Below the pieces are notes generated by a model. That model searched no databases and was not told where the DNA came from. It worked only from the letters and a program-made list of their open reading frames with translations. DNA of 64,000 nt. Source: Methylobacter sp. BlB1. GTDB lineage: Bacteria > Pseudomonadota > Gammaproteobacteria > Methylococcales > Methylomonadaceae. Shown one piece after another: positions 26,791-35,596 of this stretch; position 1 is the stretch's first letter, and each line of letters begins with the position of its first letter. The stretch spans positions 1-64,000 of the forward strand of contig NZ_JADMKV010000002.1 in NCBI RefSeq assembly GCF_015476545.1, read 5' to 3'. The translations under genes were made by a program, and so were the position numbers.

Positions 26791-27732
26791 CTAGCCTTTA
26801 CCGCGCGTACGCGTACGGCTGGGGTGGAATGATGATTTATCTTTAACCGTTGCCAACGTTTCAATGCGTTTTTCAATAAATTGAATGATCAGATCAGCGA
26901 TATCCTTGCCGCTGGTTTGTTCGATACCACGCAATCCGGGCGATGAATTGACTTCCATAATTACAGGGCCGTGATTGGAACGCAGCATGTCCACGCCGCA
27001 GACATTCAGCCCCATGATTTTGGCAGCCCGCACAGCAGTAGAGCGTTCTTCCGGCGTCAATCGAACCAATGAAGCCGTTCCGCCGCGGTGCAGATTAGAG
27101 CGGAACTCACCTGCCGCACTCTGACGCCTCATGGCGGCCACCACTTTATCGCCAACCACAAAACAGCGTATATCGCTACCCTCGGCTTCCTTGATAAATT
27201 CCTGTACCATAATATTGGCTTTGAGCCCCATAAAGGCCTGAATAACACTTTCGGCCGCATTATGGGTTTCGGCCAATACCACGCCTATCCCCTGCGTACC
27301 TTCCAGTAATTTAATAACCAGTGGCGCGCCGCCCACTTGAGAGATTAAATCCTCAATATCATCCGGATTGTTGGCAAAACCGGTTACTGGCAAGCCTATG
27401 CCTTTTCGCGCCAACAACTGTATTGAACGCAATTTGTCGCGTGAGCGTGATATGGCTACCGATTCATTCAACGGGAACACATTCATCATTTCAAATTGCC
27501 TTAACACTGCAGTACCGTAAAATGTAACTGAAGCTCCAATACGGGGGATAACAGCATCAAACCCTGTCAGGTCCTCACCCCGATAATGGATGGATGGATT
27601 ATGCGAAGTAATGTTCATATAACAACGCAAAACATCCAAAACCCGTACCTCATGGCCGCGCGCCTCTGCGGCTTCAACCAACCGAGCGGTTGAATATAAT
27701 TTAGAGTTACGAGACAAAATAGCAATTTTCAT
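26791..27732 (-). CDS. rimK: ribosomal protein S6--L-glutamate ligase RimK
   Basis: A 313-residue ATP-grasp ligase that adds glutamates to the C-terminus of ribosomal protein S6. The N-terminus '[22 protein letters not shown]' matches RimK, followed by '[11 protein letters not shown]', the ATP-grasp segments '[11 protein letters not shown]' and '[17 protein letters not shown]', and the metal-binding '[14 protein letters not shown]'. The start was moved from a GTG at 27750 to the ATG at 27732, 11 bases after GAGGAA. The C-terminal tail is basic (RTRTRGKG). A second, distinct RimK-like gene lies at 34.0-35.6 kb. Confidence 0.94.
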
Positions 27733-28001
27733 AAAAAGGCAGTTCCTCACATATTAAGATAAATCATATTTTGTCATGAAATATCCAGGCAAGCATTAGA
27801 AATAACAGCAACTCAGCAAGGATCGCCCAGTTTTTTAAGATAAACTTAAAAATAAAAGCTTAAGGCACGGAATCATTAAGCAGGACAAAATAAAACGGCA
27901 ATTATCATTGTTCCCGTTAAAACGATGAGATAACAAAGAAAGGAATTTTTAAAAAACGCTTTTTTTTAAAATAAAAAACCACATCATTAATACGGAATTA
28001 C

Positions 28002-31492: not shown

Positions 31493-31602
<110 letters not shown>

Positions 31603-31693: not shown

Positions 31694-32803
31694 TTAAGCA
31701 GGCCAGAGTATGACCGCCGCCCGCAGACGGTTTTTGCCAAAGCAGGACATGCGGTCAAAATCCTCACGCGCCACGGGAATATACTGGCAGTCGACCTCAC
31801 TTTGACGCCCCTCTTCCGGGTCCGGATCATGCATATACAAACAATCTTCATCGCTTCCGCTCATAACCACCCAGTGCGGTGCTTTCTTACGGTCCATGCG
31901 GAAAGTACTGATGAGCACCAGCGGTATCGCTCCGGCATTAAAGGCTTCAATCAAATCGTTTTGGGTAATATTGGCATAATGTATTTTTATGCCCTGCTCT
32001 TCGGCTTCGCGCTTAAAACCATTATCCACCAACTCGACAACCTGTTTTTTTTCCTCACTGCGTACACTATCTATAAACAGTGGCCCTGTCTGACTGATCC
32101 AGACTTCGACATTAAAATGCCGGCGCTTTGCCGCCAAGGCCAACCCCACCGGATGACAGCCGCCATGGCCGGACGTCATAAAGATCGTCGTCGCTTCGCG
32201 CCACAAATTGAGCTCTTCTTCCTGGGACGGCAGATACGTCTTGTTTAGTCCGTGCATGGCCATCATCAGCGAAGCCGGCCCGCAAGTAAAAGGCGTCGTT
32301 TGCCTCATCCAATGCACGGGCCTGTGCTCTAATGGCTCTCGATACCGGCGGATGCGCTTCTGGTAACGCAGCGCGTCTTTGTGGTCTTCATAATAATCAT
32401 GGTATACGCCGAACCTCTGAAAACCCAGTGCTTCATACAGATTAATCGCCGCTATATTATCAATGCCCACTTCGAGGCGCAGGTATAATCGACCATCCTC
32501 AATGGCTTCCTGTTCGCCTGCCGCCATGAGCAATTTGGCAATGCCGGAGCCGCGTTGCTGATGCGATACGGCCAGCGAATAGATACGGGCCAGGCGCGTG
32601 CCGGGATGATAGATAATCAGGATATAACCGACGATCCTGCCCTCCACTTCCGCCACCAGTAAAGCACGATGCTCCGTCGTTATCCAGTGCCGGAAACTGC
32701 GCCTGCTCAGTCTGTCGGTTTCAAAACTGGCATTTTCAAGCGCTACCAATTGATCAAGATCATCTGGCTCGGCATGTCGAATCAGGATATTGTTGATAGT
32801 CAT
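31694..32803 (-). CDS. GNAT acetyltransferase / C39-like peptidase fusion
   Basis: A 369-residue two-domain protein. Residues 1-150 are a RimI-like GNAT domain with the acetyl-CoA loop QQRGSGIAK (82-90) and 'NIAAINLYEALGF'. Residues about 165-369 are a papain-like C39 peptidase: Cys174 in 'TPFTCGPASLMM', His310 in 'PHWVVMSG' and Asp326 in 'MHDPD' make a full triad. Such fusions are predicted to modify and cleave the same peptide. The start overlaps the DUF2817 stop by four bases (ATGA), so the two are translationally coupled. The divergent RLAN-RimK gene completes a probable functional set. Substrate unknown. Confidence 0.88.
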   Translation of the reverse strand: MTINNILIRHAEPDDLDQLVALENASFETDRLSRRSFRHWITTEHRALLVAEVEGRIVGYILIIYHPGTRLARIYSLAVSHQQRGSGIAKLLMAAGEQEAIEDGRLYLRLEVGIDNIAAINLYEALGFQRFGVYHDYYEDHKDALRYQKRIRRYREPLEHRPVHWMRQTTPFTCGPASLMMAMHGLNKTYLPSQEEELNLWREATTIFMTSGHGGCHPVGLALAAKRRHFNVEVWISQTGPLFIDSVRSEEKKQVVELVDNGFKREAEEQGIKIHYANITQNDLIEAFNAGAIPLVLISTFRMDRKKAPHWVVMSGSDEDCLYMHDPDPEEGRQSEVDCQYIPVAREDFDRMSCFGKNRLRAAVILWPA

Positions 32804-33900
32804 GAAACTGATAGCCCCCGCAATGCTTGCGAAAACACCTGCCTTGCCCGAAACAGCGTCATTTCCTTCCAGGCTTGATCATCCGGACAGAAATGGTGCC
32901 GCATGTGCCTACTATGCTCTAAACGGGCTCGCTGGTTGTCCGGCTGCGCCCACACCTGATGATCGAGCAGCAAGACTTCAAAGAGTTGATCTGTTTTGAA
33001 CGTACCGAATTCCAGGGTGATATAGCAACTTCTCTCATTCATGACCGCATGCCAGGCATAATCCAGCAAGCCTATTTTGGGCACTGAACTGGACGTGCCC
33101 AAAGCCGGCAAGGCCACAGAATCGCCATACCAGCGGCGAGCCACGCTTGTGCCGAAACTATCCGGCTCATGGTCACAAATAATCTCACCGTAACCATAAG
33201 ATCCAAGCCCGGTATGCAAATCGATAACAGCCAGATCACGCTGTTGCAGGTCATATTTATCGATAAGATCTTCAACGACCCGTCTGCCATGCGCGGGCGC
33301 CTGCCCGCCATAGAAAGGACCGCTGGCGTCGACATATTGTCCGGCGCTGATAGCGCTTTCAAGCGATTCGCGCCCATACTTACGTTCCCAGTCGGCAAAA
33401 GCCGCCTGTCTTTGACCGGCATCGGCCAGAAATAAAATAGGGCGCAGCGACTCGTAGCCCGGATTTCTGGGCAACGGTTTGGAAAAATCGACCACGTTCC
33501 GATTCAAATCAACACCATCGGCATCACAGCGGCGCTGCCAGGCATAGCCCCAAGGCGTCAATGCATGAATCATTAACACAGCCGTATCAGCCGGAATACA
33601 GATATGTTCAGCAGCAATCAGGCGCAAATGGTCAATTTCCACCGCCGTACCGGCAAATCCTTCAATGCCATGCGTGCCGCCTATCAGCACCACCACTTTG
33701 GAAGCCTCTTCCGAGCCCAGCCAGACCGTATCGGTAAATAACTCCTCGCCTTCAGGCCCCGCCCCGGCGCAGCGATACGGCATATGTTTCTTGAAGCAGG
33801 ACAGCTGAGCCAGCGCCGCTTGCCAACGCTGCCTGCCAACTGCATAGCTGATTGGAAAAACATCTGTATCAAAAGCGGCGACGGGAAGAGAAGAGGACAT
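32800..33900 (-). CDS. DUF2817 family M14-like zinc metallopeptidase
   Basis: A 366-residue cytosolic protein with the layout of M14 carboxypeptidases: zinc ligands His77 and Glu80 in 'GGTHGIEGF', an Arg/Asn substrate site in 'DLNRNVVDF', third zinc ligand His229 in 'VIDLHTGLG', and the general base Glu297 in 'YITLEFGT'. The family is known as DUF2817; carboxypeptidase or amidase action on a small peptide or amide is inferred. No signal peptide. It is the first gene of a two-gene operon with the GNAT/C39 fusion and shares a 142-base divergent promoter region with the RLAN-RimK gene. Confidence 0.85.
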   Translation of the reverse strand: MSSSLPVAAFDTDVFPISYAVGRQRWQAALAQLSCFKKHMPYRCAGAGPEGEELFTDTVWLGSEEASKVVVLIGGTHGIEGFAGTAVEIDHLRLIAAEHICIPADTAVLMIHALTPWGYAWQRRCDADGVDLNRNVVDFSKPLPRNPGYESLRPILFLADAGQRQAAFADWERKYGRESLESAISAGQYVDASGPFYGGQAPAHGRRVVEDLIDKYDLQQRDLAVIDLHTGLGSYGYGEIICDHEPDSFGTSVARRWYGDSVALPALGTSSSVPKIGLLDYAWHAVMNERSCYITLEFGTFKTDQLFEVLLLDHQVWAQPDNQRARLEHSRHMRHHFCPDDQAWKEMTLFRARQVFSQALRGLSVS

Positions 33901-34042
33901 AATGATTACCTAAGAATTTTTCTTTAGCATAGCGCCAGCCAGAACAATATGAAATATTTTTCCAGCCCCAAAAAACTCCTTGTAGAAAAATCTGACTGGC
34001 TCCAAAATTATATTTTATCTTAATTTGAGGCTTTTGTTTGCT
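33901..34042. promoter_or_regulatory. divergent promoter region of the peptide-ligase cluster
   Basis: AT-rich 142-base gap between the divergent DUF2817 and RLAN-RimK starts. It must carry both promoters. I could not pick convincing -35/-10 pairs or an operator. Confidence 0.4.
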
Positions 34043-35596
34043 ATGGCGCGTACCATTCTGGTTGTCGATAATCTTACCGATTGGGGACCTTATTATCCCA
34101 GCGACCAGGTCATGGCCTTTGAAACCTATCTGGCAATCGAGCAAGGCGACCCTCAGCAGCGCACGCGCGTTATCAATCTCTGCAGCAGTTATCGTTATCT
34201 TTCAGACGGTTATTACTGTTCTCTGCTGGCCGAAGCCAGAGGTCATCACGTTATTCCATCTGTCAAGGTACTGAACGATCTGGGCAAGAAATCCTTATAC
34301 CGGCTACAGCTTGAAGACCTGTCCCCGACGCTGACGCGCACTTTTAAGAGTTACGGCAAGGAAACCGAAAGCGCTTCGTACCGATCGCCACTCGAAGACT
34401 TGTCCCAGACCTTGAATCGGGCCTTTAAAAGCCATAACCAAGACACTGACGTTACCCTGCAGACTTACTTTGGCACTACGTCCGATCCGGCTTTTAACGA
34501 ATTGGCAAGGCTATTGTTTGAACGCTTTCCTTGCCCGATCCTAGAAGTCACGCTACGTTTTCGGCAACAATGGGAAATCACCAGTTTAAAAGCCATCTCA
34601 CACCGCGGCCTGAGCGAAGAACAGGAAACGATTTTTGCCGAAGCACTGGACCAGTTCAGCAAAAAAGTCTGGCGCAAAGGCCGCGCCCGTAAAGCCGCAC
34701 GCTACGATCTTGCCATTCTGGTCAATCCGGAAGAAAAACTGCCGCCGAGCAACCTCGCCGCCCTTAAAAAATTCATCAAAATCGGCAGGCAGCTGGGCAT
34801 TGAAGTCGAATTGATATCGCAGCAGCACTATATCCGCCTGTCTGAATTTGACGGCTTGTTTATCCGCGAAACCACTGCCATAGATCATCACACCTACCGC
34901 TTTGCCAAAAAAGCCGAGGCCGAAGGCTTGGTGGTCATCGATGATCCTACCTCCATCCTGCGCTGCACGAACAAGGTTTATCTTGCCGATCTGTTTCGCA
35001 CGCATCGCGTTCCCTCACCCAAAACCTGGCTGCTGCATAAAGGCAATGCCGAACATCTGGATAAATTGGAAGTAGAAGCCGGCTTTCCGGTGGTCATTAA
35101 AATACCGGACGGCTCTTTCTCCCGAGGCATTGTTAAAGTTCATAACCGACAAGAACTGGATCTTAAAGTCGAGGAATTGTTTCAAAAATCGGCACTGCTT
35201 CTGGCTCAGGAATTTTTATATACGGATTTTGACTGGCGCATCGGCGTATTCAACAATAAGGCTTTATATGCCTGCCGTTATTATATGGTTAAAAACCACT
35301 GGCAGATTTACCGTCACGGCAGCAGCCGGACCGATAGCGGAAACTTTGATACCCTGCCGACTTTTGAAGTACCTAAAGCCGTATTGGAAGCAGCGCTAAA
35401 AGCCACACAGCCGATAGGCAATGGCTTGTACGGCGTGGACGTCAAGGAAAAAAACGGCAAGGGCTATGTAATAGAAGTGAACGACAATCCAAACATCGAC
35501 AGCGGCATTGAAGACAAATACCTGGGCGATGAGCTTTATGTATTGATCCTGACCGAATTCCTAAGGCGCATGGAGAACCGAAGCAAAGGCATATAA
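34043..35596 (+). CDS. RimK-like ATP-grasp ligase with RLAN N-terminal domain
   Basis: A 517-residue protein. Residues about 1-160 match the RimK-like ATP-grasp N-terminal (RLAN) domain ('VVDNLTDWGPYYPSDQVM', 'YRYLSDGYYCSLLAEARGH'). A linker follows, then an ATP-grasp domain (about 310-505) with 'VIKIPDGSFSRGIVKV', 'AQEFLYTDFDWRIGVF' and the metal-binding 'VIEVNDNPNIDSGIED'. The expected reaction is ATP-driven amide-bond formation between a carboxylate and an amino acid or peptide. Start at the ATG 34043, 12 bases after GAGG, rather than the TTG at 34025. Residues 86-139 are a tandem 27-residue duplication. It is divergent from the GNAT/C39 and DUF2817 pair. Confidence 0.9.
   Translation: MARTILVVDNLTDWGPYYPSDQVMAFETYLAIEQGDPQQRTRVINLCSSYRYLSDGYYCSLLAEARGHHVIPSVKVLNDLGKKSLYRLQLEDLSPTLTRTFKSYGKETESASYRSPLEDLSQTLNRAFKSHNQDTDVTLQTYFGTTSDPAFNELARLLFERFPCPILEVTLRFRQQWEITSLKAISHRGLSEEQETIFAEALDQFSKKVWRKGRARKAARYDLAILVNPEEKLPPSNLAALKKFIKIGRQLGIEVELISQQHYIRLSEFDGLFIRETTAIDHHTYRFAKKAEAEGLVVIDDPTSILRCTNKVYLADLFRTHRVPSPKTWLLHKGNAEHLDKLEVEAGFPVVIKIPDGSFSRGIVKVHNRQELDLKVEELFQKSALLLAQEFLYTDFDWRIGVFNNKALYACRYYMVKNHWQIYRHGSSRTDSGNFDTLPTFEVPKAVLEAALKATQPIGNGLYGVDVKEKNGKGYVIEVNDNPNIDSGIEDKYLGDELYVLILTEFLRRMENRSKGI
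34298..34459 (+). repeat. 81-bp tandem duplication inside the RLAN-RimK gene
   Basis: Two adjacent 27-codon units, 34298-34378 and 34379-34459, translating to related segments with shared LEDLS.TL.R.FKS. DNA has drifted more than the protein, so the duplication is old and under selection. Confidence 0.75.

Follow-up and report, generated by a model that had tools for sequence, protein, structure and literature searches.

An RLAN-RimK-type ligase and a RimI-type acetyltransferase form the conserved core of an uncharacterised gene set in Methylobacter sp. BlB1

Three adjacent genes were analysed in a stretch of 64,000 nucleotides of Methylobacter sp. BlB1 (contig NZ_JADMKV010000002.1, positions 1 to 64,000; hereafter the window). 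They encode a GNAT acetyltransferase domain fused to a C39-like cysteine peptidase domain of the DUF3335 family (GNAT-C39), a DUF2817 (M14-like) zinc metallopeptidase or amidohydrolase and, divergently, a putative amide or peptide ligase with an RLAN and a RimK-like ATP-grasp domain. The conserved core of this set is the ligase together with the GNAT, not the trio. We put at roughly 50% the probability that ligase and GNAT make a short N-acetylated peptide-like metabolite and that the C39-like and M14-like enzymes hydrolyse the same compound.

Results

Co-occurrence and the conserved core

The sample comprised 299 genomes of the phylum and 14 control genomes. RLAN was detected in 60, DUF3335 in 51, DUF2817 in 44 and DUF155 in 35 of the 299, the DUF2817 count being restricted to matches with E < 1e-50 (the other 29 of 73 matching genomes were omitted as weak). 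RLAN and DUF3335 occurred together in 50 genomes against 10.2 expected (Fisher and expected co-occurrence values ignore relatedness), and in 48 of these 50 the two lay at most 10 kb apart on one contig (exceptions: G006 and G169). DUF3335 without RLAN was seen in one of 51 sampled genomes (G008). Strong DUF2817 matches accompanied RLAN in 25 of the 60 RLAN genomes (8.8 expected), with DUF2817 within 10 kb of RLAN in 14, 12 of which belong to one family; 19 of the 44 strong-DUF2817 genomes had no RLAN. Counted by family, RLAN was present in 25 groups, in 20 of them with DUF3335, in 8 with DUF2817 and in 7 with DUF155. The co-occurrence of all three families, which the initial annotation had proposed as a check on a common pathway, held for ligase and GNAT-C39 (RLAN in 50 of the 51 DUF3335 genomes) but failed for DUF2817. 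Because DUF2817 lies within 10 kb of RLAN in so few genomes and the C39 domain is dispensable, the trio was demoted as a single conserved unit.

To describe the direct neighbours of the ligase, 39 loci were fetched from among the 62 RLAN genes that other genomes carry, usually one or two for each genus, and their genes were called with a codon-bias gene caller (floor 50 amino acids), not taken from annotation. A GNAT adjoined the ligase in 38 of the 39 loci: GNAT-C39 in 23, a stand-alone GNAT in 14, and a ligase-fused GNAT plus GNAT-C39 in one (L163), with none in the remaining locus. Ten RLAN genomes carried no DUF3335 at all; nine of them were fetched, and a stand-alone GNAT lay beside the ligase in all nine. 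On the ligase tree, in which five rows carried no partner label, the partner switched between GNAT-C39 and GNAT alone at least eight times, seven of these switches being forced by well-supported branches. No recurrent unassigned gene or candidate target emerged from the 20 operon partners that the core genes have in 49 loci (gene calls of at least 50 amino acids).

The RLAN ligase

The ligase gene (34043..35596, plus strand; 517 amino acids) exceeded the Pfam cut-offs with both its RLAN domain (PF14401; 34121-34645; 177.5 bits) and its RimK-like ATP-grasp domain (PF08443; about 34970-35503; 34.2 bits). The open reading frame (ORF) is open from the listed TTG at 34025; ATG 34043 is probably the start, because the consensus of relatives opens with MAR. 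The window ligase is 94% identical to that of M. luteus IMV-B-3098. The RLAN domain was reportedly introduced by Iyer et al. in 2009. Five ATP-grasp residues (K312, K354, D467, E479 and N481) were kept in 121 of 121 aligned sequences, the ATP- and metal-binding positions being assigned by analogy, and fold and residues suggest that the enzyme would form an amide or peptide bond in an ATP-dependent manner.

Among solved structures, the best sequence match of the ligase was RimK (1.6e-8), and a fold search with its predicted model gave D-Ala-D-Ala ligase, RimK and LysX/ArgX as best matches. This model was of middling quality (mean predicted local distance difference test score, pLDDT, 62.8) and did not settle the fold of the RLAN domain. 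With the equivalog model of the S6 ligase RimK, the window ligase scored 32.1 bits against a cut-off of 331, and membership in RimK, with modification of ribosomal S6, was rejected on this score. The true RimK of the genome is encoded at 26791-27750 (minus strand; 473.5 bits with the S6 glutamate ligase model), about 6 kb from the RLAN ligase. A close match outside the ligase itself was seen at the M. luteus locus only among 80 named loci (the best 80 of 188, of which 16 had less than 3 kb of upstream flank and 3 had no complete ligase), so this closeness looks incidental.

An insertion of about 28 residues was observed in the RLAN domain (about 34300-34440), which resembles a diverged in-frame duplication and gave two overlapping profile matches. 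It is also present in M. luteus, and most relatives of the ligase are near 490 residues long. A DNA repeat search of the insertion region found no repeat of at least 20 bases. Additionally, a plasmid record of Legionella adelaidensis (L171:41-3232) showed a different partner set, with the RLAN ligase followed by a GCS2-type ligase and then by an N-formylglutamate amidohydrolase.

The RimI/Ard1-type acetyltransferase domain

The GNAT-DUF3335 fusion gene (31694..32803, minus strand) carries its acetyltransferase domain in the N-terminal part (about 32351-32791; Acetyltransf_1, 67.8 bits, over the Pfam cut-off). With the RimI equivalog model TIGR01575, this domain scored 80.0 bits, below the cut-off of 86.4, and in a search of its own genome it ranked second (82.8 bits; best 141.4, third 54.4). 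An RLAN-linked GNAT ranked first or second for the same model in all 20 genomes tested. RimI was also the best NCBIfam model for 10 of 10 stand-alone GNATs scanned, out of 14 (64.3-85.0 bits, under 86.4), and two fused GNATs were slightly over the cut-off (G070, 89.5 bits; G058, 87.4 bits).

The predicted model of GNAT-C39 (mean pLDDT 89.0) had Ard1, RimI, Naa10, Naa30 and Naa60 as its closest structures (Z up to 23.8). The top 16 rows of the fold search were RimI, Ard1 or Naa proteins (Z 21.4-23.8), other GNATs followed from Z 21.4 down, and phosphinothricin and tabtoxin acetyltransferases trailed at Z about 20; the matches were mostly GNAT chains, with the C39 half barely probed. The residues of the [FY]Y-x-D signature were kept at Y137 (89 of 92), Y138 (87 of 92) and D140 (85 of 92), and this form, read by eye, was present in all 14 stand-alone GNATs. 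A narrow text pattern of the signature was found in 6 of the 14 stand-alone sequences and in 16 of the 36 fused ones. On a quick tree with several long branches, a single branch (SH-like approximate likelihood ratio test, SH-aLRT, 100) separated 50 RLAN-linked GNATs, fused or alone, from 12 other top matches of the RimI model. These 12 were left from 20 top matches fetched, three having been lost to a length filter and five dropped (four RLAN-linked GNATs and one in a wrong frame). The GNAT domain belongs to the RimI/Ard1/Naa group of N-terminal (alpha-amine) acetyltransferases. RimI and Ard1 acetylate the alpha-amines of protein N-termini, which makes an acetyl group on the alpha-amine of a peptide or amino acid the most likely cap.

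The C39-like and M14-like hydrolases

The C-terminal part of the fusion (31706-32317) matched DUF3335, 'Peptidase_C39 like', with 309.5 bits, over the Pfam cut-off. The catalytic residues were kept almost throughout 92 sequences (Q168 in 91, C174 in 91, H310 in 92, and D326 in 84 with Glu in the other 8). The single row without Cys (L182) is most likely a shortened gene call, and the whole profile matches at that locus. The model for the bacteriocin-leader C39 peptidase (PF03412) gave 12.6 bits against a cut-off of 22, and no transporter domain was found in the chain.

The DUF2817 gene (32800..33900, minus strand) yielded a product scoring 286.8 bits, over the Pfam cut-off. Six residues expected of M14 enzymes (H77, E80, R124, N133, R134 and H229) were kept in 64 of 64 sequences and E297 in 63 of 64, the zinc ligands, Arg/Asn pocket and catalytic Glu being assigned by analogy. 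By sequence, only weak matches to solved structures were obtained (best E 0.11). The stop of this gene shares four bases (ATGA, 32800-32803) with the start of the GNAT-DUF3335 gene.

What the initial annotation had seen in this region was confirmed. The ORFs bore out three adjacent intact genes with a coupled four-base overlap, and the identities as M14-like peptidase, GNAT/C39 fusion and RLAN-RimK ligase agreed with the Pfam domains, all over cut-off. The C39 triad proved intact, and the C39 label is right in that the domain is C39-like, but not in the sense of the bacteriocin-leader family.

A separate DUF2817-GNAT-C39 unit and its gene neighbours

Among the methanotroph-like loci with an upstream flank of 3 kb or more ('methanotroph-like' or 'Methylococcales-like' is a label assigned in this analysis from record title and list rank, and it includes L093, titled only as a proteobacterium), C39 and DUF2817 lay beside the ligase in 31 of 44, and neither was within 3 kb in 13 of 44. 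For these 13 loci, ten genomes were searched, L065 and L103 were left out, and in L085 the pair lies some 8 kb upstream. GNAT-C39 was found elsewhere in all 11 searched genomes without it by the ligase (the ten methanotrophs and Parahaliea), and DUF2817 adjoined the relocated GNAT-C39 in 10 of 10 methanotroph genomes checked. Because DUF2817 stays with GNAT-C39 away from the ligase, the two form a separate mobile unit, which is usually but not always divergent to the ligase. Their overlap was exactly four bases in 21 of 32 loci with both genes (starts chosen by script). In non-methanotrophs, the Microbulbifer and Marinomonas loci had GNAT-C39 and the ligase with no DUF2817 in the fetched stretch, and HdN1 had all three.

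Peptide or amino-acid importers and deacylases are frequent, though not constant, neighbours of the relatives of both hydrolases. Specifically, in G172 (L193) two DUF3335 proteins flank an oligopeptide ATP-binding cassette (ABC) importer accompanied by a gene for an AstE/AspA-type deacylase, and a DUF3335 gene closes an ABC transporter run in Sinorhizobium. The DUF3335 gene of G008, after a 2-oxoacid dehydrogenase gene, was little informative, and two neighbours scanned at L194 revealed nothing telling. For DUF2817, the analysis covered the neighbours in 5 of the 13 loci that lack RLAN close by and in 6 out of 124 plasmid records. DUF2817 was found beside genes for an M20 aminoacylase, an Xaa-Pro peptidase and ABC transporters (two near-identical arrangements), near ectoine-use genes and with amino-acid ABC genes plus an Asp/Glu racemase (one record each), beside Peptidase_C26 (L187), and joined to the ATPase domain of an ABC transporter in a fusion protein of 656 residues near an amino-acid-binding protein (L192:5785-7752). 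Other neighbours, namely a chemotaxis receptor, TctC/EamA, MR_MLE, sugar ABC plus kinase genes and a dioxygenase, were uninformative.

Association with NAGGN genes and DUF155

N-acetylglutaminylglutamine amide (NAGGN) is described as the product of Ngg, which acetylates and forms the peptide bond, and AsnO, which amidates, with a peptidase in the operon (PMC8070244). A complete operon for the osmolyte NAGGN was found in G006 (L168/L256; G006:C1:231000-250900), with GNAT-C39, DUF2817 and DUF155 1.7 kb behind it on the same strand. The order is AsnO (939 bits), Ngg (944), a small gene, M42 (614), two unassigned ORFs, GNAT-C39, DUF2817 and DUF155; AsnO, Ngg and M42 were all over their model cut-offs. 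L168 itself has no ligase, and the RLAN ligase of G006 lies elsewhere, beside a stand-alone GNAT. Among the loci fetched up to that scan, Ngg was not found beyond the overlapping G006 stretches, and the window's genome gave no match over the cut-off (TIGR03103; best 29.9 bits against 569). The idea that the system replaces NAGGN where the latter is absent was unsupported, as RLAN and Ngg look independent (Ngg over the cut-off in 7 of 60 RLAN genomes and 21 of 239 others).

DUF155 (RMND1/Sif2-Sif3 family) recurred near the ligase or GNAT-C39 at L120, L146, L151, L155, L157, L159, L168 and L212-L214; in L155 it follows the ligase directly, and in L168 it comes after DUF2817. It lay within 10 kb of RLAN or GNAT-C39 in 13 of the 21 genomes shared with RLAN. 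In the window's genome DUF155 is a single gene, which lies on a different contig beside a gene for an RlmJ-type methyltransferase. A constant partner of DUF155 itself was sought in the fetched loci and none was seen. For RMND1, the human relative, links to mitochondrial disease and to translation in mitochondria are described.

Other features of the locus

The DUF2817 and ligase genes are separated by a divergent intergenic region of 142 bp (33901..34042), in which a search for sigma-70 promoter and terminator consensus found none. No ORF of at least 32 amino acids lies wholly inside this gap, the wider surroundings not having been searched for short conserved ORFs. A scan of the three proteins with PADLOC defence models (E 0.01; a library of described systems only) returned no family, and none of the three reached a cut-off in the NCBIfam scan. 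In addition, a gene for the bacterial small signal recognition particle (SRP) RNA (Rfam RF00169, 72.6 bits) was located at 31498-31594 (minus strand), between the GNAT-C39 gene and dnaX.

Discussion

In the reading that we favour, the RLAN ATP-grasp enzyme would activate a carboxylate with ATP and join an amino acid, as its fold and residues suggest, and this amino acid might be glutamate or glutamine, a guess from the RimK and LysX relatives. The RimI/Ard1-type domain would acetylate the free alpha-amine of the product, and synthesis would resemble that by Ngg of the NAGGN pathway, in which acetylation and ligation are combined in one protein. During recycling, the C39-like domain and the translationally coupled DUF2817 enzyme may hydrolyse amide bonds or the acyl cap. 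We infer that a single compound is the substrate of all these enzymes; how large it is, what it is and which bond each hydrolase cuts are likewise predictions. The earlier proposal that the three genes build, cap and remove a tag stands in so far as ligase and GNAT are nearly inseparable and the hydrolase sites are intact, but not in its view of the trio as one unit. A broader claim, that the genes define a widespread, unnamed N-acetyl-peptide system with a RimI-like GNAT group of its own, an unrecognised metabolite or peptide tag, an eraser composed of the protease-acetyltransferase and the M14-like enzyme, and a functional link to DUF155, the bacterial relative of RMND1, is put forward only tentatively.

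Several observations weigh against the metabolite reading. The known substrates of RimI/Ard1-type GNATs are N-termini of proteins and peptides, which fits a protein substrate at least as well. The ligase had no adjoining GNAT in L141 (GNAT-C39 lies on a different contig of that genome), nor in a Pseudomonas aeruginosa record, and DUF3335 occurred without RLAN not only in G008 but also in one of the 14 control genomes (Methanosarcina acetivorans). The importer and catabolic settings were observed for distant relatives (33-41% identity in the cases measured), which may differ in substrate; moreover, these settings were hand-picked, and about half of them (including L184, L186 and L195) were uninformative. 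A NAGGN neighbour was present in one of seven sampled genomes with both Ngg and RLAN, and the frequency of Ngg in RLAN genomes showed no excess beyond chance. Finally, 21 of the 35 DUF155 genomes hold RLAN, all 21 with DUF3335 as well, and a metabolite pathway does not explain this.

The main rival explanation places these enzymes on a protein. The ligase would extend a protein C-terminus or side chain, as RimK does on S6, the C39-like domain would trim an N-terminus, the GNAT would cap it and the M14-like enzyme would remove the added C-terminal residues. This agrees with the closeness of the GNAT domain to N-terminal protein acetyltransferases in both sequence and structure, with the presence of protease and acetyltransferase in a single chain, with the RimK match of the ligase (best by sequence at 1.6e-8, and among the best by fold beside D-Ala-D-Ala ligase and LysX/ArgX) and with the DUF155/RMND1 association. 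A cleave-and-cap parallel is described for actin, from which ACTMAP strips N-acetyl-Met before NAA80 re-acetylates it (PMC11465159, PMC13367750). However, no candidate target gene recurred among the 20 operon partners in 49 loci, several DUF3335 and DUF2817 relatives sit with small-molecule importers and deacylases, and DUF3335 is missing from 10 of 60 RLAN genomes, so cleavage is not a fixed part. Tagging of protein termini is considered rather unlikely.

The ligase might also work with its GNAT alone, while GNAT-C39 and DUF2817 serve general salvage of dipeptides or acyl-amino acids and lie divergent to it by chance in methanotrophs. The loose tie of DUF2817 to RLAN (no more than 10 kb apart in 14 of 60 genomes, 12 of these from one family; RLAN missing from 19 of 44 strong-DUF2817 genomes) and the 13 of 44 methanotroph-like loci with neither gene within 3 kb of the ligase are what such a division of labour would leave behind, but the near absence of DUF3335 without RLAN (1 of 51 sampled genomes) is too tight for unrelated functions, and GNAT-C39 contains the same GNAT group as the stand-alone GNATs beside other RLAN genes. 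We regard separate functions as improbable. Far less credit still is due to a cluster for a ribosomally synthesised and post-translationally modified peptide (RiPP) of the graspetide type, or for defence or a toxin, in which the ligase would cyclise a ribosomal peptide and the C39-like domain cut its leader. ATP-grasp ligases and C39 peptidases are both known from such clusters, but PF03412 remained below its cut-off with no fused ABC transporter, no unassigned gene recurred among the operon partners (gene calls of at least 50 amino acids), and PADLOC, a library of described systems only, assigned the three proteins to no defence family. The 142-bp gap holds no ORF of at least 32 amino acids wholly inside it, so the search, which covered this gap only, revealed no precursor; the initial annotation had likewise found no precursor gene nearby.

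The metabolite reading concerns a ligase present in one out of five genomes sampled from the phylum (60 of 299), nearly always with the same GNAT group, for which no known product was found. The question is narrowed to a testable pair, ligase and GNAT, with an N-acetylated short peptide as the predicted class of product; GNAT-C39 and DUF2817 would be the recycling pair, and DUF155 is a fourth, unexpected associate.

Comparison with known systems

The window genes join a known, uncharacterised family set. A search of the open literature, outside which Iyer et al. 2009 lay, found no experimental study of RLAN, DUF3335 or DUF2817 clusters. The word 'uncharacterised' chosen in the initial annotation fits this literature; 'undescribed' would be wrong, because GNAT-DUF3335 fusions are already in print. 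They appear, as a family only, in a classification of papain-like proteins that cites Iyer et al. 2009 (PMC10318531); the domain fusion is the same as in the window, and RLAN and DUF2817 are not mentioned in the accessible part of that paper. In the RimABK and RloABC systems of Pseudomonas, an ATP-grasp protein is likewise paired with a peptidase (PMC12239564), but the peptidases there are retropepsin-like aspartic enzymes, and no GNAT is named in the part of the paper available.

The RimK, LysX, ArgX and MptN ligases resemble the window ligase in fold class and in the conserved Lys, Asp and E-x-N residues, whereas the window ligase has an extra N-terminal RLAN domain, lies far below every equivalog cut-off and contains a conserved WR...HWQI motif region that is missing from aligned RimK. 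With the RimI/Ard1 N-terminal acetyltransferases, the window GNAT shares the best family model, the nearest structures and the LE-V and [FY]Y-x-D signatures. Unlike these, RLAN-linked GNATs are often fused to DUF3335 and are separated on the tree from the 12 other RimI-model top matches; the window GNAT and the ten scanned stand-alone GNATs stay under the RimI cut-off, with the fused G070 and G058 proteins just above it. The NAGGN pathway (AsnO, TIGR03104; Ngg, TIGR03103; M42, TIGR03106) differs in that the window ligase is RimK/LysX-like with RLAN, the GNAT is of the RimI type, the peptidases are of other families and no asparagine-synthase-like partner lies next to the ligase. Nevertheless, it too combines a GNAT, an ATP-grasp ligase and a peptidase, and the RLAN locus L163 has, in the manner of NAGGN synthesis, a GNAT fused to the ligase.

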